DNA from: Candidatus Cacconaster equifaecalis
Lineage (GTDB): Bacteria > Bacteroidota > Bacteroidia > Bacteroidales > UBA932
Reading direction: 5' to 3'
Length of the DNA stretch: 46,872 bases
Assembly: GCA_018064445.1 (NCBI GenBank)
Contig: JAGHVE010000011.1
Location: forward strand, 1 to 46,872
The notes under the pieces are model-generated. The model did no database searches and was not told the origin of the DNA. It worked only from the letters and a program-made list of their open reading frames with translations. The position numbers and the translations under genes are program-made. Below are positions 14,721 to 26,022 of the stretch, piece by piece. Position 1 is the first letter of the stretch. Every line of letters begins with the position of its first letter.

Positions 14721-16685
14721 ATGAAGAGGATATTGGCATTGCTATGTGCCGGTCTCTGCATCATTGCGTGCGGAACCCAGAAAAAGGTTACAAGAATCCG
14801 CAAGGAGTCCACCGGGGTGCAGATATCACTCCCCAGGGAAAAGGAGGTGCAGTTCCGCGACATAAAGTCGGACTATCGTCCCGCCGATACGCTGACGGTC
14901 GTGGATATGGACGGCCACCAGCAACTGATAATGAACGCCATCAGGGATGACGAGACGGGCGAGATGGTAGCTACGGAGACCATAGAGGCCGCGATGGTCA
15001 CGGCCCGCTTCCGCAATGTCGCCGAGCGTCACGGAAAGGTGGACATAGAGTTTCAGATACGTGTTCCCCACGACCTTTTTGACCCCGCCTGGCAGATAAG
15101 ATTCTATCCCCGGATGGTCGTCCTTGAGGATACTCTCAATCTTGATCATATTCTGATAACCGGCAACCAGTACCGGCGGGAGCAGGACAAAGGGTATATG
15201 AGGTACCGCAGGTTCATGGAGAGCATAGTCACAGACTCCACGGAGTTCATACATATCGGCCAGTTCGAGCTGTTCATCGAGAGGAACATACCTGCCCTCT
15301 ATATGTTCAAGCAGGATTCCTCGTATGTCATGGACGAGCAGTTCGAGAGCTGCTTCGGCGTGGATGAGGAACAGGCGATAGAGCATTACACCAACAAGTT
15401 CCGGCGCTGGTTCAACAACTGGAAGAAGGACAACGTGGAGGTGATGTACCGCCGCTACATAAAGAGCCCCATCGTCACGGACCACCTCAAGCTGGATACC
15501 GTGATACAGGCGATGAACGGGGATTTCATATACAATTACACGCAGACGATACAGACAAGGCCGAAATTGCGGAAGGTGGAGGTTTTTCTTTCGGGGGACA
15601 TCTACGAGCAGGAGAGACATATCTACGGCATTCCGCAGGCGGAGCCCCTGACCTTCTATATCAGCAGCCTGTCCGCATTCGTTGACAATACGGAAAGGTA
15701 CCTCAGCCGGATTCTAAGCCGGAAGGTGGAAGAGAACACGGCCTGCTACATAGAATTCAAGGCTGGCTCCGATGCCGTGATTGACACGATGGGCAACAAC
15801 GCTCCGGAGATAGACAGAATCAAGGGTAACCTGGCGAGCCTTGTCCGCAACACGGAATTTGATCTGGACTCCATCGTGGTTGTTGCCTCCGCATCACCGG
15901 AAGGAACGTATTCCTTCAACAGGAATCTCTCGTCCAGGAGGGGTGCCGGCGTGAGCCGCTACTTTGAATCATATGTCAGGCGCTATGTAGATTCATTGAA
16001 GAGAGAAGAGGGATTCCGTTTCAATCTCGACGAGGAATATAATGGCGGAGGAACTCTGGAGGCTTCGGATATCCGGTTTATCTCCCATTCGGAGCCGGAA
16101 AACTGGAGGATGCTCGACGCCCTTGTGAGGAACGACGTCGTGATGGACGACGGGGACAAAGAGGAATATTTCTCCCACGAAGGTATGGAACCGGATGCCC
16201 GCGAGGCTGCGATGCGTTCCGACCGTCAGTACAAGTATTACCGGGAGGTCCTTTATCCCAAGGTCCGCATCGTGAAGTTCGCCTTCCATCTGCACCGCAA
16301 GGGAATGATTCAGGACACTGTCCTGACAACGGTCCTTGACACCGCGTATATGAACGGTGTGCAGGCGATACGCGACCGCGATTACGAAAAGGCGATAACG
16401 CTGCTGCGCCCGTACAATGATTATAACACAGCAATCGCTTACTGCTCAATGGATTACAATGCCAGTGCGATGGCTGTTCTTGAAAAACTCGAGCGTACCG
16501 CTCCCGTAAACTATATGCTTGCTGTACTGCATAGCCGCAAGGGAGAGGACAGGGAGGCCGTGGAATGCTATCTGCGATCCTGCCAGCAAGACCCGTCATA
16601 CGTGTTCCGCGGGAACCTCGACCCGGAGATCAGCGCCCTGATAAAGCAGTACGGGCTCAACAAGGAGGAATATACCGAAGAATAA
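14721..16685 (+). CDS. OmpA-like lipoprotein with C-terminal TPR-like region, fimbrial operon
   Basis: A 654-residue lipoprotein: lipobox IIAC, lipid cysteine C17. The N-terminal half (about 30-330) resembles the uncharacterised domain found with DUF3575 in Bacteroidota fimbrial loci, but I cannot name it firmly. About 340-425 is an OmpA-like domain: SIVVVASASPEGTYSFNRNL followed by SSRRGAGVSRY matches the xxGxASPEGxxxxNxxLSxRRAxxV signature and would contact peptidoglycan. About 545-640 is TPR-like (GVQAIRDRDYEKAITLL, LAVLHSRKGEDREAVECYL). It follows the DUF3575 gene by 10 bp. A periplasmic or outer-membrane scaffold for fimbrial assembly is a reasonable inference. Confidence 0.8.
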   Translation: MKRILALLCAGLCIIACGTQKKVTRIRKESTGVQISLPREKEVQFRDIKSDYRPADTLTVVDMDGHQQLIMNAIRDDETGEMVATETIEAAMVTARFRNVAERHGKVDIEFQIRVPHDLFDPAWQIRFYPRMVVLEDTLNLDHILITGNQYRREQDKGYMRYRRFMESIVTDSTEFIHIGQFELFIERNIPALYMFKQDSSYVMDEQFESCFGVDEEQAIEHYTNKFRRWFNNWKKDNVEVMYRRYIKSPIVTDHLKLDTVIQAMNGDFIYNYTQTIQTRPKLRKVEVFLSGDIYEQERHIYGIPQAEPLTFYISSLSAFVDNTERYLSRILSRKVEENTACYIEFKAGSDAVIDTMGNNAPEIDRIKGNLASLVRNTEFDLDSIVVVASASPEGTYSFNRNLSSRRGAGVSRYFESYVRRYVDSLKREEGFRFNLDEEYNGGGTLEASDIRFISHSEPENWRMLDALVRNDVVMDDGDKEEYFSHEGMEPDAREAAMRSDRQYKYYREVLYPKVRIVKFAFHLHRKGMIQDTVLTTVLDTAYMNGVQAIRDRDYEKAITLLRPYNDYNTAIAYCSMDYNASAMAVLEKLERTAPVNYMLAVLHSRKGEDREAVECYLRSCQQDPSYVFRGNLDPEISALIKQYGLNKEEYTEE

Positions 16686-16718: not shown

Positions 16719-17744
16719 ATGAAAAAAATCATTTACACGTTGGCAGCCTTGACGTTGGTATTATGCACTGTTGCTTGCAATAAGAGCCTTGACACCGTTG
16801 AAGTCACAGGGGATGAAAACAAATCAAAGCTCATCGTCAACATCAAGGGATTCCCTGCCGCAAGTCCATCCGATGATACCGTCAAGTCTTTGACTAAGGG
16901 AGAGGGAGATACGAAGTATCAGACCACTGTTGAAAAAAAGGTTTCACAGGTTGACATAGTCATTTATGACGAATCAGGCGCGAAGGAATGGAACAGACAT
17001 TTCGACGGTGCGCCAATGTCGCATCAACTCATCACAGGCTTGACGGAGGGAGCTAAAACCGTTGCCGTGCTCGCCAATTACACTCTAGATTCTGTACCTG
17101 CCACCATTACTGCATTCAAGGAGACTTTGACGTCCCTTGCGGACAACAGCCGCGATAACTTCGTAATGGTCGGAGTGGCTGAAGGGACGGCCGGTACCGA
17201 TCCGGAACCTGTCAGCTTGAAACTTGTCCGTGTAGCGGCGAAGGTTTCTGTTACCGGTAACATCATCACCGCCTGGGAAGGAGAAGCTCCGGAGTCTTTC
17301 GATATTACGGACATATATTTGGCCAACGTTGCGGTCGCCTCTGATTTCGATTATGACGGCTCCTCCGGACCGGAAATCAATTTGCGTTCAACCGTTGAAT
17401 TGGTGGCAGACTCCCTGTACAATGATTTCACCGTTGCTGTGAAGAAGAATTGGACAGATGGAGATCAATTCAACGGAGGCGTGGATTTCTATGCGTATCC
17501 GAACTCTGATGATGTCCGCACCTGTGTGATGATAAAAGCCCTGTATGATGGACGTGTCACATATTATCCTCTTGTCATCAATCAGCCGATTGCTCAAAAT
17601 ACTCTTTACAGAATAGGTGATATAACCATTACCTGCGAGGGCTGCGAGAATCCTTGGGATGAGTTTTCGAAGATCAGGGTGTTCTTTGACATTGAGGTAG
17701 CCGATTGGGATTACAAGGAGATTTATCCCGAATATACATTTTAG
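16719..17744 (+). CDS. FimA/Mfa1-like major fimbrial subunit (stalk fimbrillin 1)
   Basis: A 341-residue lipoprotein precursor with lipid cysteine C20 (TVAC followed by NKSLD). Type V fimbrillins are exported as lipoproteins, lose their N-terminus to a protease, and polymerise by donor-strand exchange. The N-terminal domain contains VSQVDIVIYDESG and a FVMVGVAEG segment. The C-terminal domain ends VADWDYKEIYPEYTF, the expected terminal strand with V-x-x-W. T59-K60-G61, 40 residues after the lipid cysteine, matches a tripeptide found in all structural subunits here and is a candidate cleavage site. The start at ATG 16719 fits the signal peptide. Its position just before the anchor gene mirrors mfa1-mfa2 order. 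Confidence 0.85.
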   Translation: MKKIIYTLAALTLVLCTVACNKSLDTVEVTGDENKSKLIVNIKGFPAASPSDDTVKSLTKGEGDTKYQTTVEKKVSQVDIVIYDESGAKEWNRHFDGAPMSHQLITGLTEGAKTVAVLANYTLDSVPATITAFKETLTSLADNSRDNFVMVGVAEGTAGTDPEPVSLKLVRVAAKVSVTGNIITAWEGEAPESFDITDIYLANVAVASDFDYDGSSGPEINLRSTVELVADSLYNDFTVAVKKNWTDGDQFNGGVDFYAYPNSDDVRTCVMIKALYDGRVTYYPLVINQPIAQNTLYRIGDITITCEGCENPWDEFSKIRVFFDIEVADWDYKEIYPEYTF

Positions 17745-17766
17745 CCAATCTTTGAAGCTGCTTTTC

Positions 17767-18555
17767 ATGAAACGTTTCTGCCACATAACTCTTCTGCTGC
17801 TGGCGACGGCATCCTGTTCCGTCAAGGAAATCAGGGATGACTGTCCCTGCTATTTTGGTCTGACGGTAACTTTCCAGAACGATTCCATTTTTCAGAATGG
17901 AAACGCATGGTGCGGCATTTTTAACGAGGACGGCTCTCTGGCTGAAGGAAATGTCCTTTCAGAGATGAACGTGCGGGATACGACAATGTCTTACCGGATT
18001 GACCCGAGAAGGACGGTCTCTGCCGTGGCTTCCAGCAGGGAGGTTGTAGCGGGAAAGGTTACCGTCCCCCTCGGAAGCGAGATGACGAAACTTTCTGCCT
18101 ACAGGCAGGATTTCGTCTGCACCTCCGAATTCGTGGACGGAGTCATTGACAGGCAGGACAAGCAATACTGTACATTGGATATTCATCTGACCGAAGCGGC
18201 GATGCCGTTCGCTTCGCAACTGGTCATCCGCATCGAGGCCCCTTATAACGGGACATCATTCCCGTCGATGGAGGCGCATTCCGGAGAGTTCCAGTATAAG
18301 GCGGTATTTGACGCCAGTGGACGCGTATCCATACGTATTCCCCGGCAGGGTGCCACCGGTGCGAGGCTTTCAGTGCAAAAATTGAACGCCTTTTCTGCGA
18401 CTTATGATCTCTATGGCGATATGTCGATGTCCGGTTATGACTGGAACAGGGCCTCAATGGAAGATTTTTCGTTTCCTGTCGGGCTCAATTCCACTACGGG
18501 TACCATCGAGATTCCCGACTGGACTCCAATTGAATTAGGTGACTATGAATTTTAA
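17767..18555 (+). CDS. FimB/Mfa2-family fimbrial anchor subunit
   Basis: A 262-residue lipoprotein with lipid cysteine C16 (ATASC), followed by SVKEIRDDCPCYFGLTVTF. A cysteine, then a DDCPCY-type segment and a beta strand, is the recognisable start of the Mfa2/FimB family, whose members cap and anchor fimbriae in the outer membrane and control their length. It ends IEIPDWTPIELGDYEF, again a W-containing terminal strand. Unlike all six structural subunits of the operon, it has no T-K-(A/G) tripeptide after the lipid cysteine, consistent with an anchor that keeps its lipid. The ATG at 17767 gives a normal signal peptide; a TTG five codons upstream is rejected. Confidence 0.82.
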   Translation: MKRFCHITLLLLATASCSVKEIRDDCPCYFGLTVTFQNDSIFQNGNAWCGIFNEDGSLAEGNVLSEMNVRDTTMSYRIDPRRTVSAVASSREVVAGKVTVPLGSEMTKLSAYRQDFVCTSEFVDGVIDRQDKQYCTLDIHLTEAAMPFASQLVIRIEAPYNGTSFPSMEAHSGEFQYKAVFDASGRVSIRIPRQGATGARLSVQKLNAFSATYDLYGDMSMSGYDWNRASMEDFSFPVGLNSTTGTIEIPDWTPIELGDYEF

Positions 18556-18584
18556 TACACAACTCAAACAAAAATCAACAAAAG

Positions 18585-19460
18585 ATGAAACGCTATTTTA
18601 CACAGGCGCTTTGCGCCGTAACTCTCATCGGTCTTGTTTCCTGCCAGAAGGAAGACCATTTCACAATCAAGGATTCAACAAGGGAATCTCTTACCAGGAT
18701 GACATTCGGCGTCAAGGGCGATGGTCTCAAGATGGCTGTAAGCACCAAGGCTGAAGTTGTATCCGAAGTCAATAATGTGTATTGGATGGCTACCGGCGGT
18801 ACTGTCGGCACGGACACTTTGGTACATGAGCCTCAGAGTGTTTCTCTAAGTGAAGCCGAGGATAGTTTCAATACCGGCAAATACTGGCCTTCAGAAGATA
18901 TTGACTACAACTATTACGTCTCCAACGTTCAGTTCTCGTGGGATTCCGGAGCGGCCACCATTGAGGCATCCAACGAGACGGATATTGTGGCGGGCATTGC
19001 GGAGGCGGCTTACAAGAGCAGTCCTGAAGTGACCGTGGATCATATCTTCTGCCGTACAGGGGCCCTGACGCTTGAGGCGCAGGAAGGCTACGAACTGGTT
19101 GGTACAGCCATCTGGAAGATACAGAGTAATGAAAGCACGGGCACTGCAGGTGCCTATAATATCGGTACTAAAGAATGGAGCAATGTCTCCGCTCTGTCCC
19201 GGGAGGTTTTCACCAGCGAGTCCGACCTTTATCTGATTCCCGGTTCATATAATATCGAGATTACCTATACGTTGAAGAAAGGCAACTTCCAGAAGGAGTA
19301 CACTAAGGCTGCCGACGTTGAACTCAATGTTGGTAAAGTCAATAACATCAAGGCAACCGCTCACGTAGGCGATGACGGTGCCGAAGAGATTGTCTTCTCC
19401 GTTTCCGTTACCCCTTGGGAAGATGAAGACGTAGTAATAGAACAGAGTGACTTAAAGTAA
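18585..19460 (+). CDS. Fimbrillin-family lipoprotein (accessory subunit 1)
   Basis: A 291-residue lipoprotein with lipid cysteine C20 (LVSC) followed by QKED, which fits the C-x-K-(D/E)2 surface-export signal described for Bacteroidota lipoproteins. The body matches the Mfa-like fimbrillin pattern: KYWPSEDIDYNYYVSNV, a DIVAG segment, LIPGSYNIEITYTLKKG, and a terminal strand with VTPWEDED. A candidate maturation site is T54-K55-A56. Part of its layout (YWPSEDxDYxxYxSNV, then a DxVxG-like segment and a LNVGKVNNIKA strand) recurs in the 989-residue protein at 23053, so the two are probably related. Confidence 0.82.
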   Translation: MKRYFTQALCAVTLIGLVSCQKEDHFTIKDSTRESLTRMTFGVKGDGLKMAVSTKAEVVSEVNNVYWMATGGTVGTDTLVHEPQSVSLSEAEDSFNTGKYWPSEDIDYNYYVSNVQFSWDSGAATIEASNETDIVAGIAEAAYKSSPEVTVDHIFCRTGALTLEAQEGYELVGTAIWKIQSNESTGTAGAYNIGTKEWSNVSALSREVFTSESDLYLIPGSYNIEITYTLKKGNFQKEYTKAADVELNVGKVNNIKATAHVGDDGAEEIVFSVSVTPWEDEDVVIEQSDLK

Positions 19461-19474
19461 AGAAACGAAAAGTT

Positions 19475-20380
19475 ATGAAAAGATACAGTACTTTGATGAT
19501 TTGTCTGGCAGTCCTCTTTGCTTCCTGCAACAAGGAGGATGCAGGTATGCGGTCTTTTACCGGTGAAGATTTTTCTTTCTCCGACAAGGCCATCATATTC
19601 GCTGATGATTTTGTGGTTACAAAGGCTTATGCCGAAAATACCGCCGAGCAGGTGCGTGAGGGCGGATTCAATGCTGCCTGCCTTGCGGGCGATGCGACAG
19701 TCTTCAACGAGAAAGTGGAGTATGACGGATTGTCATCCGCTTACAGAACCAAGTCGAAGGCATATTATTATCCTTCTTCCGGGAAAGTTGATTTTTTCTG
19801 CGTCTTCCCTTCCTCCAATACCATAGGAAAAAATGGTGGCGAAGTTACGTTGTCCTATGCCCAGAACTCCGGCACAGACCTTCTGGTTGCAAGACGTACA
19901 GGAATAGGCGCATCCGATACGGCTGTTGTAATCAGTTTCGATCATGCCCTATCATTGATTCATTTCAAGGCTGAAGGTTCGGACGATGCCTTGACATATA
20001 AGGTGAAATCAGTTTCAATAAACGTTCCGGACGGTGGCGTATTCAGTTACAATGATTATGAGTGGTCTCCGTCAACAGATTCTACTGCCGAAATTTACAG
20101 TTCCCGGGTTGTTACGCTCGACGGTCTCACGGAGATACCCGGAGCCGTAGTATTTGTCCCGTGTGAACCTGAAATCAGTGTCCAGTGGGATATTTATTAT
20201 GGAGACATCCCGATAGAGTCACGTGATGAGACCAGATTTCTTGGCAGCGCTCTAAAGATGGGAGAGGAATGTACCGTTACGTTGATGCTTCCCGGTACGG
20301 ATTCGGAAAAGATGGACTTTGACATTGTCGTTACTCCTTGGGATTCAACGGAGCGCGATTTGACCTTTAAATCAAAATAA
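19475..20380 (+). CDS. Fimbrillin-family lipoprotein (accessory subunit 2)
   Basis: A 301-residue lipoprotein with lipid cysteine C18 (FASC) followed by NKED, fitting the C-x-K-(D/E)2 export signal. The body has the typical fimbrillin segments KAYYYPSSGKVDFFCVFPSS, a DLLVARRTG strand, FDHALSLIHFKAEG, and a terminal VTPWDSTERDLTF. T49-K50-A51 is the candidate maturation site. The same YYYP / DLLVA / FxHALSxIxxK architecture appears in the N-terminal domain of the gene at 21447, so these two are close paralogs. Confidence 0.82.
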   Translation: MKRYSTLMICLAVLFASCNKEDAGMRSFTGEDFSFSDKAIIFADDFVVTKAYAENTAEQVREGGFNAACLAGDATVFNEKVEYDGLSSAYRTKSKAYYYPSSGKVDFFCVFPSSNTIGKNGGEVTLSYAQNSGTDLLVARRTGIGASDTAVVISFDHALSLIHFKAEGSDDALTYKVKSVSINVPDGGVFSYNDYEWSPSTDSTAEIYSSRVVTLDGLTEIPGAVVFVPCEPEISVQWDIYYGDIPIESRDETRFLGSALKMGEECTVTLMLPGTDSEKMDFDIVVTPWDSTERDLTFKSK

Positions 20381-20388
20381 CTTCTTAT

Positions 20389-21435
20389 ATGCAAAATTTG
20401 TTCTATTCTTTTGTCTTTTCTCTTCTTGCGGTTGCTTTTGTTTCCTGCAACAAGGATGAATTGTCTTCAAAGAGAGATTCCTCTGCTGACAAGATAGGAT
20501 GTGTGTTTTATCTTAAGGGTATCTCAGATGGAATTGTGACAAAAGCCGTTGGAATGGAGTCCGGAGAAGAAGGCCTTGAGGATGAAAAGGCGGTCAAGAG
20601 CCTGCAGATATATGTATTCAGGGCTGACAGCAGTCTTGCGGCGTCACGCAATGTGATGAATTCCAAAAGTCTGAAACTTGACGTGAATGTCGGTACGGGC
20701 TATTCCATTTACGCAGTCTGCAACGAGGAGAACTGGACCTCTTCTATCAAAAGAATCTCCGATCTTGAGGAAAAAGAGACGGTTCTTCTCAGCACTGATG
20801 AGGGTGCGTCTTCGTTTGCGATGCAGGGAAAGATAGAAGATCAGACCATTTCCTCTGAAAACAGGGAATTCAGCATTGAGGTGGTGCGTCGTGCCGCCAA
20901 GGTCGTGGTCCGGAAGATTACCAACAATCTTCCGGAGGGTGACATAATCATTGAAGGTATCTATATCTCCAATGTCGTCACAAACTCCTGTATGTTTTCG
21001 GACGCATTGCCCAATGCTCCCGTCTGGGTCAATCAACTCGGTGTTTTTGATGGACTATCCGCCCTCAATTGGTTCGGAGACAAATTCGAGACACCCGTGT
21101 CTGTTGCCAACGGACAGGCGTATGAGACTGCACATACCTTCTATGCCGCCGCAAATCCGACAGCGACGGATGAGCACAGTATTGACAAGTTCTCTTCCCG
21201 ATATACAAGGATCGTCATCAGGGCTGACATAGGAGGTACGATATACTATTACCCAATCAGTTTCAAAAACGAAATTCCGGAACTGACAGCCAACGATTAT
21301 ATCGACATAAAGAACATTAATATCAAGCACTTGGGTTCTGATAATCCTGAAACTCCGGTGACAATCGGGCAGGACGTGACCGTATCGGTTGAAGTGAAGG
21401 ACTGGAACAGGGTAGAGCATACGATTGAATTTTAA
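20389..21435 (+). CDS. FimA/Mfa1-like fimbrial subunit (stalk fimbrillin 2)
   Basis: A 348-residue lipoprotein precursor with lipid cysteine C20 (FVSC) followed by NKDE, fitting the C-x-K-(D/E)2 export signal. T51-K52-A53 is the candidate maturation site. The N-terminal domain has AVKSLQIYVFRADSSLAASRN and a VRRAAKVVVRKI strand, both typical of FimA/Mfa1-type subunits. The C-terminus ends VKDWNRVEHTIEF, comparable with VADW...YTF of stalk fimbrillin 1. Having two stalk-like subunits in one operon suggests either a minor subunit near the tip or alternative stalks. It starts 8 bp after the previous gene. Confidence 0.82.
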   Translation: MQNLFYSFVFSLLAVAFVSCNKDELSSKRDSSADKIGCVFYLKGISDGIVTKAVGMESGEEGLEDEKAVKSLQIYVFRADSSLAASRNVMNSKSLKLDVNVGTGYSIYAVCNEENWTSSIKRISDLEEKETVLLSTDEGASSFAMQGKIEDQTISSENREFSIEVVRRAAKVVVRKITNNLPEGDIIIEGIYISNVVTNSCMFSDALPNAPVWVNQLGVFDGLSALNWFGDKFETPVSVANGQAYETAHTFYAAANPTATDEHSIDKFSSRYTRIVIRADIGGTIYYYPISFKNEIPELTANDYIDIKNINIKHLGSDNPETPVTIGQDVTVSVEVKDWNRVEHTIEF

Positions 21436-21446
21436 TGAACCTTATT

Positions 21447-23030
21447 ATGAAAAAATACTTTTTTTTAGCGGCGGCAGTGGTATTACTGACCTCCTGTCAG
21501 AAATCTCTCAACGAAACTGATTCTATCCGCCGTGAAATCCGTCTGGGGCTCTCGGCGATAGAATACGAGACGAAAGCTTTCGTGGAATCTACAAACAGCA
21601 GTCTGCAGTCCAACGGCTTCAAGGCCGCAGTTGTCATAGATGCTGATAATAGCACGATGTTCAATAAAGCAGTGGTCTACAGTAACGGTGCTTACATCGT
21701 ACCCGGGGAGCGCTATTATTTTCCCAATGAAGGTACGGTGTCTTTTTACGGAATATATCCTGCCGATGAATTGATCTCAATCGCCGCTGACGGCAAGGCT
21801 TCAGTCTCTTATACTCATAACTCTGATGATGACCTCATCGTGGCAAAAAAGAATGGCGTCGCAAGTCAGAGCGATGCCGTGGCATTGGAATTCGAACATC
21901 TGTTGTCCCAGGTTTCTATCAATGTAAAAACCGAAGATCCGGATATTGTCTGCAAACTTCACGAGTTATCCATCAATGACTCCAAAGGAGGAATATATAG
22001 TTTCGTTGACAGTACATGGACTTTAAATGATAACAAGGCAAAGTATATTTTTTACAGCAATACCGGTGGACAGACTGTAACTACGACAGCATCTGCGGTG
22101 GGTTCTGCAATAAGCTTAATGCCCGGAGAGGTTTCCCTTAATGTATTATGGAAGTGTTACAGCAAAAATGGACAACGGTTACTCAGTAACAATGATGTAA
22201 CAATTCCTGTAACGCTAACCAAGGGAAAGCGCACAGCAATTTCTTTATTGCTTCCTGCCAAAGCTTCGGAAGCCAAAGTCTCATCCAGTGTCAAAGCCTG
22301 GAATGACGAAAGCCGGAATCTTACTGCGGAAACTCCTTATTTTCCGGAACTGCTCACAAGCGTATTCACGGTCAATGCGTCAAATAAAAAGGTAAAATTC
22401 ACCAAGGGGAATCTCTTCTGGAATGGCAGTGAATTCCGCTGCGAGGAACAGCAATATCACTATCGCGATGTTTGGGATGACACGCATATCGATCACTTTT
22501 ACTGGAGCAGTGATGCAAGGGTGGCGATAGCACCTTTCTACAGTGACGCGTTGACTGAATTCGGCATTACTCCAGGTAAAACTGAGACATTCTTCGCTGC
22601 CGACGGCGGAGCGTTCGAAGGACTGACCGTGCTCAGCAGTGATGAATGGCAGTATATTTTTAATCACGGTCTTGCGAAAAATTCGTCTTCAAAGTACAAG
22701 ATAATCATCAATGGAAAGAATTGCGTTGTCCTAAAACCCGACGGATTCAACGGAACAGTGGCAGACAGTTATACTGCCTCCGAATGGGCTGATGCGGAGT
22801 CTGAATTCGGACTTCTTGCCCTTCCTATGGCAGGCATTCGTTTTCAGAAGGATATTAGTTCGCCCGGCATCAGTGCCGCTTACTGGTCGACTACGCATAA
22901 CGGCAATGAACCCACTGATTTATGGATAGATCGAGCTCCCTTCTCTGAAGACAACTTTGGCCCGAACTACGGAGGCCTCCCTACCCAACGCCACAATGGC
23001 AATAGTGTCCGCCTAGTACAGGTTCAGTAA
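21447..23030 (+). CDS. Fimbrillin with C-terminal C-type-lectin-fold-like domain (probable tip adhesin)
   Basis: A 527-residue lipoprotein with lipid cysteine C17 (LTSC) and candidate maturation site T42-K43-A44. Residues about 20-295 are a fimbrillin domain (RYYFPNEGTVSFYGIYPAD, DDLIVAKKNG, VKAWNDESRNL). Residues about 305-527 match a domain common in Bacteroidota surface proteins: a KKVKFTKGNLFWNG strand, LTVLSSDEWQYIFN, FGLLALPMAGIR, AAYWSTTHNGN, and a final NGNSVRLVQVQ. The last part is the core of a C-type-lectin-like fold, the fold used for ligand binding and, in some relatives, for diversification by retroelements. No reverse transcriptase is in the window. The ATG at 21447 is preferred; one at 21435, overlapping the previous stop, is possible. 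Confidence 0.78.
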   Translation: MKKYFFLAAAVVLLTSCQKSLNETDSIRREIRLGLSAIEYETKAFVESTNSSLQSNGFKAAVVIDADNSTMFNKAVVYSNGAYIVPGERYYFPNEGTVSFYGIYPADELISIAADGKASVSYTHNSDDDLIVAKKNGVASQSDAVALEFEHLLSQVSINVKTEDPDIVCKLHELSINDSKGGIYSFVDSTWTLNDNKAKYIFYSNTGGQTVTTTASAVGSAISLMPGEVSLNVLWKCYSKNGQRLLSNNDVTIPVTLTKGKRTAISLLLPAKASEAKVSSSVKAWNDESRNLTAETPYFPELLTSVFTVNASNKKVKFTKGNLFWNGSEFRCEEQQYHYRDVWDDTHIDHFYWSSDARVAIAPFYSDALTEFGITPGKTETFFAADGGAFEGLTVLSSDEWQYIFNHGLAKNSSSKYKIIINGKNCVVLKPDGFNGTVADSYTASEWADAESEFGLLALPMAGIRFQKDISSPGISAAYWSTTHNGNEPTDLWIDRAPFSEDNFGPNYGGLPTQRHNGNSVRLVQVQ

Positions 23031-23052
23031 CTCCATTGATCGGATAATATAA

Positions 23053-26022
23053 ATGAAACGTTTTTTCATCCTTACAACTTTCTTGATGACCTTTACAGGT
23101 TGCCAGTCTGTCAATTCAAATGTGACGGACATCTCTCCTGAGGCCCAAGGCCGTGAGTCCCTCAAGGCGATAGAGTTCTCCATAAGGGACACCTCCGCCA
23201 CGAAGGGCCCGTTTCCGGTAACGTCGCTCTCGCTATTCAACGTGACGGCCACTACAGGTTCTACGGGCAGTGAGACTTCAAAGCTCTCCAATGTTGTGTT
23301 CGAAAAGAAGAACAGTGTGTCCAGGAGCGACGCCGTATGGCCCTCGTCCGACCCCGGGTATCACTTCTATGCCTCCAACGTGGCGATGACTCATAATGCG
23401 TCCGGCCAGAGCGTGACGATATCCTCCATTGACAAGGACGTCGTCTGCGCATATCTTGCCAGTCCGAGTTACAAGGTGAAGAATGACTTGACGTTCAACC
23501 ATATCCTCGCGAGGGTAGGGACGGTGTCTTTCACCAACCTCGACCTCTGTTCCAACGTCAGTCTCTCGATGAAGTACAGCGGAAGTGGCACGTACAATCT
23601 CAGGACCGGGGTTTGGTCTTCCGTGGGAAGCCAGTCCACGAAGGAACTGACGACATCGGACAACGACTTCTGGATCATTCCCGGAACGTATGATGCGACG
23701 CTGACGTACAATGACGCCAACGGCAATCCGCAGAGCAAGTCCTTAAGCCAGAACTTTCTTGCGGGAAAGGTCAACAACATCAGCGCGAAGCTTGACGGCA
23801 GCGTTGTCGTCAAGACGGAGGATGAATACGAGGCCCCGACGTTCGAACTCGGGACAATAAGCGACGTTCCGGCGGGAGGAGGGGATTCCGGCACTCCTTC
23901 AGTGACCTCCATAGGCCAGCGCAAGAGGGTGAAGAAAACCCTTGCTGACGGGACGGTGAAGTACGACCCCGACTGGACGGCCGAGAGCAGTCCTAATTAT
24001 ACAATCCAGTATGGTAAGACCCTTGCATCGTTGTCGGACAACTGCCCGTCCTACCACGGAAATAATCTCGGCACTACGGCGAAGGCTCGGACGAAACTCG
24101 GTGACGTCTACGTGAGGGTTAAGATAGGGGACAAGACCACCGACAAAAATCTCACAGTATATCAGGCGGCCAACGCCCGTCACAAGGGTCAGACGGCCGA
24201 AAAGAATCATACGAGGACCGGTTCTGTTTCTTATGGCAGCAAGGAATACTATGGTGACATAAAGTGGGGGAACAAGGAATACGGAAGTGAATATTACAAA
24301 AATACCACTACTGGTTCAGAGGTTCAGGATGACGATACATATGGTGATTGGTCAACTTACAGCACGTCTACGGATAAGTATGACTATGCCGTATCGTTTG
24401 CCACGACGAGCTGGAGTCCCGGAGCGGTGGGAACCAGCAAGTCAAATTCCGTGACGGCTTATCACTATGAGAGGGATAAGTATGAACAGCGCCGTCCGGT
24501 AACGCACCACTATCATACTCCGTACACGGACCATTATTATAAGGATTGGACCAGGACGGGCTCAAGGGATTATACCCGTTCCGCATCCCAGAAGTGCAAC
24601 TACATCGAATACCGTACGGATAAGTTTGATTCCGGTGCGACGGAATATGTGGAGGAGAGCAAAAGCCATACAGAGTATTGGACGGACTATGGAACGAATT
24701 ACAGTTATGATTCGGACAGCGGCAGCGATTGGGTCAGGGATGCTTCCGGCAGTACGTCACGTACCTCTGATGGCGGATATGACTATCAGACCACTTACGG
24801 CTCAGGAAGCAAGGTAACGGATTATCCGACTCCTTCATCCAACAAGGGTTGGCTGTCATATTCCGGAAACACGATGAGCGTTTCTGCCAACAGCTCAACA
24901 AGTTCAAGATATGGTACGTTGAGTGTGTCCAACGGCCCGGCAAGTGCCAGTTGCTCTGTGTCTCAAGGGAAAAACCAGCAGACAGGTTCATCGAAGGAGA
25001 CCGAAACCGATGATTCAGGGTCAAGGACATCAGACACCGATTACTGGGTGATGATCAACGGCAGCACAAGCTCTTCCGTTGATGTATCAGCCGATGCCGG
25101 AAGCGTTGCGGTGAATGTGACGGCAGGGCATAAGCATACGGTGCAGCCGCAGATAAAAACACGTACACGTACAAAATATACCTGGGAGGTTGGAGACCCG
25201 ACATATGGTTCGTGGAGTTCTTGGTCAGGTTGGTCAGACTATGGTGACCCTACGGTTACGTATCCTTCAGATACACCTGCGTTGTCTTCCGACAAGACTT
25301 GGTTGTCGACAAATGGTTCTTACAGTGCCAATACAAGTACATCTTCTTCCCGTTCTGCCAAAATCACAGCAGCGGTAAAAGTTAGTTATTCGACGAAAGC
25401 CTCGGCTACCCTGACGGTCAATCAGGCAAAGAAAGAATTGACTTTATCAAGTATTGCAATCTCTGTGACAAGCAGTTCAATTCTTGCAGGCCAAAAAACG
25501 TCATATAAGGTAACAGCGACATATTCCGATAAGTCGACAGCCGACATCACTTCCAGTGCCACAGTAACCTCCAGCAATTCCTCCATGCTGAGCGTCTCCG
25601 GTGGAAATGTCCAGTCGAACAAGAAGATAGGTTGCCTCGGTACTTTCACTCTGACTGCTTCTTATGGTGGTCAGACAGCCTCAAAGGATGTAACTGTCAA
25701 CACTGACTATAAGTCCGATGATATCAAACTTTCGTGGAGCAGTGATGTCGGGCGTTCAGGAGAAGCATCCAGCGGCAGTGTCAGCGGATATGTAAAACGA
25801 AATTACGATAGCCAGGTTACTGTTTCATTTAAAGGAAATCTCAAAACAAGTAACAATGATACCTATTCTGCATCAAACGGTTTGATAGAATTCTATTGTG
25901 ATGGTCGTAAGGCATCCACTTCACAGACATACAGTTCCCAGGATGGCGATAGAGAAACATATGAAATGAGATACCTCGGAGAGGTAATCAAGTCATGGTC
26001 TATCAGATGGGACGGTCAGTGA
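23053..26022 (+). CDS. 989-residue multidomain fimbrillin-like surface lipoprotein
   Basis: Last and largest gene of the fimbrial operon. Lipid cysteine C17 (FTGC) is followed by QSVNS, and T50-K51-G52 is the candidate maturation site. Residues about 40-250 form a fimbrillin domain (VWPSSDPGYHFYASNV, WIIPGTYDATLTYND, FLAGKVNNISAKL). Three Ig-like/BACON-type modules follow, ending in LTVYQAAN (about 370), ASCSVSQGK (about 640) and ATLTVNQAKK (about 795); the last two are clearly duplicated. Between them lie Tyr/Ser/Asp/Thr-rich stretches (about 380-585) and a SWSSWSGWSDYG segment (about 718-729). Residues about 797-890 look like a Big_2 domain, and an Ig-like end ends at WSIRWDGQ. A long tip or stalk adhesin is inferred; no enzymatic motif is visible. 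Confidence 0.78.
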   Translation: MKRFFILTTFLMTFTGCQSVNSNVTDISPEAQGRESLKAIEFSIRDTSATKGPFPVTSLSLFNVTATTGSTGSETSKLSNVVFEKKNSVSRSDAVWPSSDPGYHFYASNVAMTHNASGQSVTISSIDKDVVCAYLASPSYKVKNDLTFNHILARVGTVSFTNLDLCSNVSLSMKYSGSGTYNLRTGVWSSVGSQSTKELTTSDNDFWIIPGTYDATLTYNDANGNPQSKSLSQNFLAGKVNNISAKLDGSVVVKTEDEYEAPTFELGTISDVPAGGGDSGTPSVTSIGQRKRVKKTLADGTVKYDPDWTAESSPNYTIQYGKTLASLSDNCPSYHGNNLGTTAKARTKLGDVYVRVKIGDKTTDKNLTVYQAANARHKGQTAEKNHTRTGSVSYGSKEYYGDIKWGNKEYGSEYYKNTTTGSEVQDDDTYGDWSTYSTSTDKYDYAVSFATTSWSPGAVGTSKSNSVTAYHYERDKYEQRRPVTHHYHTPYTDHYYKDWTRTGSRDYTRSASQKCNYIEYRTDKFDSGATEYVEESKSHTEYWTDYGTNYSYDSDSGSDWVRDASGSTSRTSDGGYDYQTTYGSGSKVTDYPTPSSNKGWLSYSGNTMSVSANSSTSSRYGTLSVSNGPASASCSVSQGKNQQTGSSKETETDDSGSRTSDTDYWVMINGSTSSSVDVSADAGSVAVNVTAGHKHTVQPQIKTRTRTKYTWEVGDPTYGSWSSWSGWSDYGDPTVTYPSDTPALSSDKTWLSTNGSYSANTSTSSSRSAKITAAVKVSYSTKASATLTVNQAKKELTLSSIAISVTSSSILAGQKTSYKVTATYSDKSTADITSSATVTSSNSSMLSVSGGNVQSNKKIGCLGTFTLTASYGGQTASKDVTVNTDYKSDDIKLSWSSDVGRSGEASSGSVSGYVKRNYDSQVTVSFKGNLKTSNNDTYSASNGLIEFYCDGRKASTSQTYSSQDGDRETYEMRYLGEVIKSWSIRWDGQ

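Follow-up and report, generated by a model that had tools for sequence, protein, structure and literature searches.

The fimbrial gene row of Candidatus Cacconaster equifaecalis raises the question of whether a tripeptide, Thr-Lys-(Ala/Gly), that recurs behind the lipid cysteine of its six predicted fimbrillins marks the place at which these pilins are matured, and which enzyme would act there. The row lies within a stretch of 46,872 nucleotides (contig JAGHVE010000011.1), referred to below as the window, of a source genome (G000) assembled to 1.7 Mb in 161 contigs with a completeness of 88.6%. Alignment with FimA of Porphyromonas gingivalis, conservation among homologues and an anchor set free of the strict motif support the proposal of the initial annotation, indicating that T-K-(A/G) is very probably a type V pilin maturation site. 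The motif very probably belongs to the known class of such sites, in which the residue preceding the cut (P1) is Lys or Arg, and we consider it probable that the site is cut at the cell surface after this basic residue, most likely by the genome's single C11 (clostripain-family) lipoprotein.

The tripeptide and the FimA cut position

All six fimbrillins have a lipobox-like cysteine at residues 17 to 20, and all six carry the tripeptide as claimed: in gene order TKG (residues 59-61), TKA (54-56), TKA (49-51), TKA (51-53), TKA (42-44) and TKG (50-52). These numbers run from the Met and not, as the initial annotation had it, from the lipid cysteine; its range of 26-40 residues between the lipid cysteine and the lysine is right, with distances of 40, 35, 32, 32, 26 and 34. 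The anchor, encoded at 17767, has no T[KR][AG], again as noted before. The dipeptide TK is the only one common to all six segments spanning Cys+15 to Cys+47, and any common dipeptide appeared in just 21 of 5000 residue shuffles; the recurrence of the tripeptide is not due to chance. The genes lie in a row on one strand, in the order OmpA-like lipoprotein, FimA-like pilin, anchor and five further fimbrillins, and probably form one operon:

14721..16685, + strand: OmpA-like/tetratricopeptide-repeat lipoprotein without a site, preceding the fimbrial genes; labelled OmpA-like only tentatively
16719..17744, + strand: FimA-like fimbrillin lipoprotein, 341 aa; PF06321 at 32.3 bits, above cut-off; lipobox Cys20
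16893..16901, + strand: TKG site of the 16719 protein, residues 59-61; VKS (56-58) nearby is an alternative, and the Cys-to-Lys distance of 40 is an outlier
17767..18555, + strand: Mfa2/FimB-like anchor lipoprotein without a site (no T[KR][AG]); starts CSV-E-R--CPC as in anchors of the genus
18585..19460, + strand: divergent fimbrillin lipoprotein, 291 aa; recruited by iterative profile search, 73.6 bits from the 23053 protein
18744..18752, + strand: TKA site of the 18585 protein, residues 54-56, read from the sequence
19475..20380, + strand: Mfa_like_1 fimbrillin, 301 aa; PF13149 at 63.1 bits
19619..19627, + strand: TKA site of the 19475 protein, residues 49-51, from sequence and alignment with the 21447 family
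20389..21435, + strand: FimA-like fimbrillin, 348 aa; PF06321 at 36.4 bits; its family profile matches solved FimA chains
20539..20547, + strand: TKA site of the 20389 protein, residues 51-53; a 13-sequence alignment has Thr51 in every sequence and Ala53 in nearly all
21447..23030, + strand: Mfa_like_1 fimbrillin with an extra C-terminal region, 527 aa; PF13149 at 67 bits
21570..21578, + strand: TKA site of the 21447 protein, residues 42-44; Thr42 among 7 invariant columns of a 13-sequence alignment
23053..26022, + strand: large fimbrillin, 989 aa, probable tip; PF13149 at 29.6 bits, above cut-off in the genome search
23200..23208, + strand: TKG site of the 23053 protein, residues 50-52, read from the sequence

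The alignments of the pilin families place the tripeptide at the FimA cut. In the 20389 family a Lys or Arg stands between the invariant Thr51 and the nearly invariant Ala53, and in the joint alignment of the 21447 and 19475 proteins (13 sequences) Thr42 is one of only seven invariant columns. A profile alignment put the Lys column of the 20389 family on residue 30, an arginine, of the P. gingivalis FimA chain 6jzk. Relative to 6jzk, another solved FimA chain, the shorter 6kmf, is shifted by exactly 30 residues (337 versus 367 aa; 263 versus 293), and this constant offset means that 6kmf, which we take to be the processed form of FimA, begins directly after the residue aligned to the Lys column. 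By these alignments a basic residue at the column homologous to the FimA cut is found in the 20389, 21447 and 19475 proteins. The exact site column of the 18585 protein is uncertain in the alignment. In the 16719 protein the TKG lies at Cys+40, past the 95th percentile (35) of Cys-to-P1 distances in the homologues described below, and in a pairwise alignment with the 20389 protein TKG and VKS are each two columns away from the TKA column, so that its exact cut residue is uncertain.

Assignment to the fimbrillins rests on a FimA/Mfa-like domain above the Pfam cut-off in four window proteins, on the genome search for the 23053 protein, and on iterative profiles for the 18585 protein, which had no match in the Pfam scan. 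The Pfam scan gave no anchor match for the 17767 protein either, and its anchor label is based on position, shared start and the earlier annotation. Size and position make the 23053 protein the probable tip subunit; TKG is also present in its homologue (331 bits) from G080, a genome of the same genus. The 21447 protein extends about 230 residues past its Mfa_like_1 domain (window positions 22344-23030), a region that aligns loosely with C-terminal parts of two relatives (L076, L092) and is possibly a ligand-binding tip domain. Searches with phmmer using two window pilins found no solved relative, and predicted structure models of the pilins had mean pLDDT (predicted local distance difference test) values of 34.5 and 42.7, too poor for domain reading.

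Conservation of the site and the choice between Lys and Arg

To follow the site among relatives, 497 lipoproteins, predicted by a home-made rule, were collected from 99 loci picked around PF13149 or PF06321 matches plus the window, and our own iterative profiles, seeded from the mature part of the pilins, recruited 266 fimbrillins of 20 genera. Two fimbrillin loci, L083 and L088 in genomes G087 and G141, are near-identical as judged by matching scores and N-termini. A strict motif, T[KR][AG] at Cys+10 to Cys+60, was present in 152 of the 266 fimbrillins, compared with 5.9% of shuffled N-terminal segments and 3.6% of windows elsewhere in the proteins; its basic residue was Lys in 108 and Arg in 44, and no protein had both forms. 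Outside the source genome the count was 146/260 against 5.4% in shuffles of the same segments, and in further genomes of genus g4 the motif was found in 29 of 54 newly recruited fimbrillins. The distance from cysteine to P1 had a median of 27 residues (5th to 95th percentile, 22 to 35). Among unrecruited lipoproteins 17/171 carried the strict motif, most of them resembling pilin starts by eye. A ranking made without any motif (first 40 loci and the window) put TKA first among tripeptides at Cys+15 to Cys+50, with 42 occurrences inside this interval versus 15 elsewhere. The comparison of homologues that had been suggested as a check shows the site to be conserved, with 152/266 strict sites and Thr invariant in both 13-sequence alignments.

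A loose motif, [TSV][KR][AGSTV], was found in 245 of the 266 fimbrillins (21 were without a loose site). It also occurred in 11/27 members of the anchor set, 63/171 other lipoproteins and 24% of shuffles, and is weaker evidence because it is frequent in the anchor set and in shuffles.

The motif might instead serve structure or export in the N-terminal region and be left uncut, since lipoprotein export signals also sit past the cysteine (PMC12632263; published work is cited here and below from parts of the papers). The published signal, however, lies directly past the cysteine and not 26-40 residues on, and the anchors, lipoproteins of the same fimbrial system, lack the strict motif altogether (0/27, one member, L017_8143, being unlike an anchor in appearance), as do the lipoproteins of an OmpA-like set (0/33). 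Together with the alignment of the column to the FimA cut, these data make an uncut feature highly unlikely. Most of the 27 members of the anchor set begin with C-[ST]-V/I-x-E-x-R and then CPC, the latter in some cases in variant form, with more cysteines 9 to 11 residues past the lipid cysteine.

Counted by the loose rule (P2 restricted to T, S or V, with T preferred), P1 was Lys at 182 and Arg at 63 of 245 sites. We rejected the idea that this merely follows protein composition, as Lys has a share of 55% in the background versus 74% at the site, with a negative slope. The initial annotation had proposed cleavage after Lys, and an enzyme devoted to Lys and distinct from the known C11 proteases could mature the six pilins: all six sites here are Lys, as are 7/7 in genome G080 of the same genus, and only 17 of the 61 genomes that have at least two sites use both residues, fewer than the 35.7 expected from permuted labels. 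Against such an enzyme, Lys is found at 77 of 91 sites in the genus outside the source genome, and at this rate six of six has a 37% chance, assuming independent sites. Both residues also occur together within single genomes of the genus: G092, for example, has 6 Lys and 3 Arg. P1 agreement among dissimilar pilin pairs is 79.7% inside a genome, 73.2% when the two genomes share a genus and 58.5% when they belong to different genera, suggesting that lineage accounts for most of the P1 consistency. A dedicated Lys-specific enzyme is therefore unlikely, and strict Lys specificity as a general rule is rejected by the mixture of Lys and Arg at homologous sites. The source organism may have a species-level preference for Lys.

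The C11 lipoprotein as candidate protease

The view that the window encodes no candidate protease holds as far as tested: the proteins scanned with Pfam include two annotated peptidases, S41 and U32, which to our knowledge are not of kinds that perform Lys/Arg-specific surface cutting. The genome search for a protease, as had been suggested, yielded one candidate lipoprotein on another contig:

Contig C71, L041:1174-2403, - strand: C11 (clostripain-family) lipoprotein, 409 aa; PF03415 at 87.4 bits; lipoprotein signal

It is the only C11 found in the 88.6% complete genome. The catalytic His and Cys and the equivalent of Asp177 (S1) are present, phmmer matched the protein to 6mzo, 3uws and 4yec, and its His-to-Cys stretch is longer than in 6mzo. 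The clostripain equivalog TIGR02806 gave 13.8 bits, far under the cut-off of 550. The C11 of Candidatus Cacconaster scatequi is 86% identical. No gingipain-family C25 (PF01364) was found in the source genome at its 88.6% completeness; the same search, as a control, gave matches in 105 of 119 genomes from across the order. A trypsin-family search of the source genome returned one protein, presumably HtrA/DegP-like and not a Lys/Arg candidate.

The substrate preference of related C11 enzymes fits the site. PmC11 of Parabacteroides merdae cut Ac-VLTK best of three VLXK substrates, and Val at P2 abolished cutting; thetapain also cut Ac-VLTK efficiently (PMC10315481). The fimbrillin consensus holds the same Thr-Lys pair as this best PmC11 substrate. 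Furthermore, PmC11 accepts Arg and Lys at P1 (PMC4850288), and a 2025 review assigns pilin cutting to a surface clostripain (PMC12632263). On this comparison, a C11 enzyme with such tolerance at P1 would be a sufficient model, and the genome's single C11 lipoprotein is the likeliest maturation protease.

Several observations weigh against this assignment. Clostripain is described as Arg-specific. The residue of the source C11 that corresponds to PmC11 Asp207, proposed to belong to the pocket, is Lys, and the activation segment of the source enzyme reads TRT, yet all six pilins carry Lys. PmC11 itself possibly prefers Arg and was inactive on BOC-K-AMC (PMC4850288). Trimming at the tip was not reported for Mfa5 (PMC5789003), and the 23053 protein does carry TKG. 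In the family sample, where fimbrillin presence was counted as a PF13149 match only, C11 was found in 88/95 genomes with such a match and also in 31/54 without one; co-occurrence is weak evidence, since C11 is common in PF13149-negative genomes, some of which have FimA-type pilins (e.g. G135, G145). Finally, four genomes with PF13149 matches (G006, G007, G043, G073) had neither C11 nor C25 found. One of them, G007 of genus g8, is 99% complete and has three PF13149 matches. The Asp207 position is highly variable across 120 aligned C11 sequences, which include a few duplicate genes.

A further search for C25 covered all seven genomes with PF13149 but no C11, and seven others including the source genome. 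Three of the former had it (G008, G023, G059), and a weak partial match was seen in the C11-bearing G016. The pilin sites seen in the C25-bearing, C11-negative G023 and G059 were all Arg (3/3), as in P. gingivalis; in their relative G042, which has C11, the site was also Arg (1/1).

A possible link between the self-cleavage residue of C11 and pilin P1 was also examined. It gave P=0.0044 post hoc (8 joint cases versus 4.15 expected) in a cross-table of 68 genomes, with a regular expression chosen after the listing had been viewed, and leaving out 18 C11 sequences without a match to it and, in the permutation, genomes with equal Lys and Arg. The link was absent from a replication set up beforehand (no joint case among 18 usable genomes out of 20), itself underpowered with 3 Arg linkers and one Arg-pilin genome. 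The post hoc signal failed to replicate, and we conclude that C11 self-cleavage tracking pilin Lys/Arg is not supported.

Alternatively, the site could be cut by host or community trypsin-like proteases of the gut rather than by an enzyme of the organism. A basic P1 suits trypsin, and the four genomes with neither C11 nor C25 would fit such a source. Trypsin, however, would not need Thr at P2, and Thr stands there at 219 of 245 sites, a count biased by the rule that prefers T; the first rank of TKA in the motif-free ranking gives unbiased support for Thr. We regard cutting by foreign trypsin-like enzymes as quite unlikely.

In the reading that we prefer, pilin precursors would be made as lipoproteins and brought to the cell surface, where a protease, putatively the C11 lipoprotein, would cut after the basic residue in the loop past the first beta-strand. 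The cut would remove the lipid together with this strand and open a groove for the donor strand of another subunit, while the anchor, having no site, would stay lipidated. The enzyme would cut after a basic P1, prefer Thr at P2, and need not be specific for Lys. More tentatively, and with somewhat less than even confidence, we suggest that T-(K/R)-A is a C11-protease signature across the fimbrillins of this Bacteroidales family, in which the preference of C11 keeps Thr and Lys/Arg drifts by lineage.

Comparison with known type V systems

Lys or Arg at the pilin loop is already published (PMC4789730). Neither a T-(K/R)-A consensus nor its agreement with what C11 prefers was found in the literature searched, which lacked most subscription journals, and either may be in print. 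The consensus offers a simple rule for predicting mature pilin N-termini in uncultured gut Bacteroidales, and the same rule separates cut pilins from anchors. It also names a candidate protease, and the match of consensus and substrate makes the pairing of enzyme and pilin directly testable.

The row resembles the FimA/Mfa1 type V pili of P. gingivalis in its lipoprotein pilins, its FimA/Mfa-like domains and a basic P1 at the homologous position. FimA Arg45 (strain W83) and Mfa4 Arg53 are confirmed cut sites there, and the Mfa4 R53K product had the same mass as wild type (PMC4789730). An anchor gene without a cut site likewise adjoins the pilin gene (PMC5789003, PMC4789730), and the anchor Mfa2 is reported to stay uncleaved (PMC5789003). 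Unlike in P. gingivalis, the source pilins are all Lys at P1, and one C11 and no C25 gingipain was found in the genome.

The source C11 shares PF03415, the His/Cys dyad, the Asp177 equivalent and a lipoprotein signal with PmC11, thetapain and fragipain, and differs from these proteases in the His-Cys stretch, longer than in 6mzo, and in the Lys at the Asp207 position. The source pilins are also like the gut pilins 3liu, 3r4r, 4jg5 and 3up6, for which Lys43, Lys50, Lys47 and Lys54 were suggested as sites, 24-34 residues past the lipid cysteine (PMC4789730, Table 2). Whereas those four sites were suggested singly, here a consensus is counted over 266 pilins, and Thr is noted at P2.

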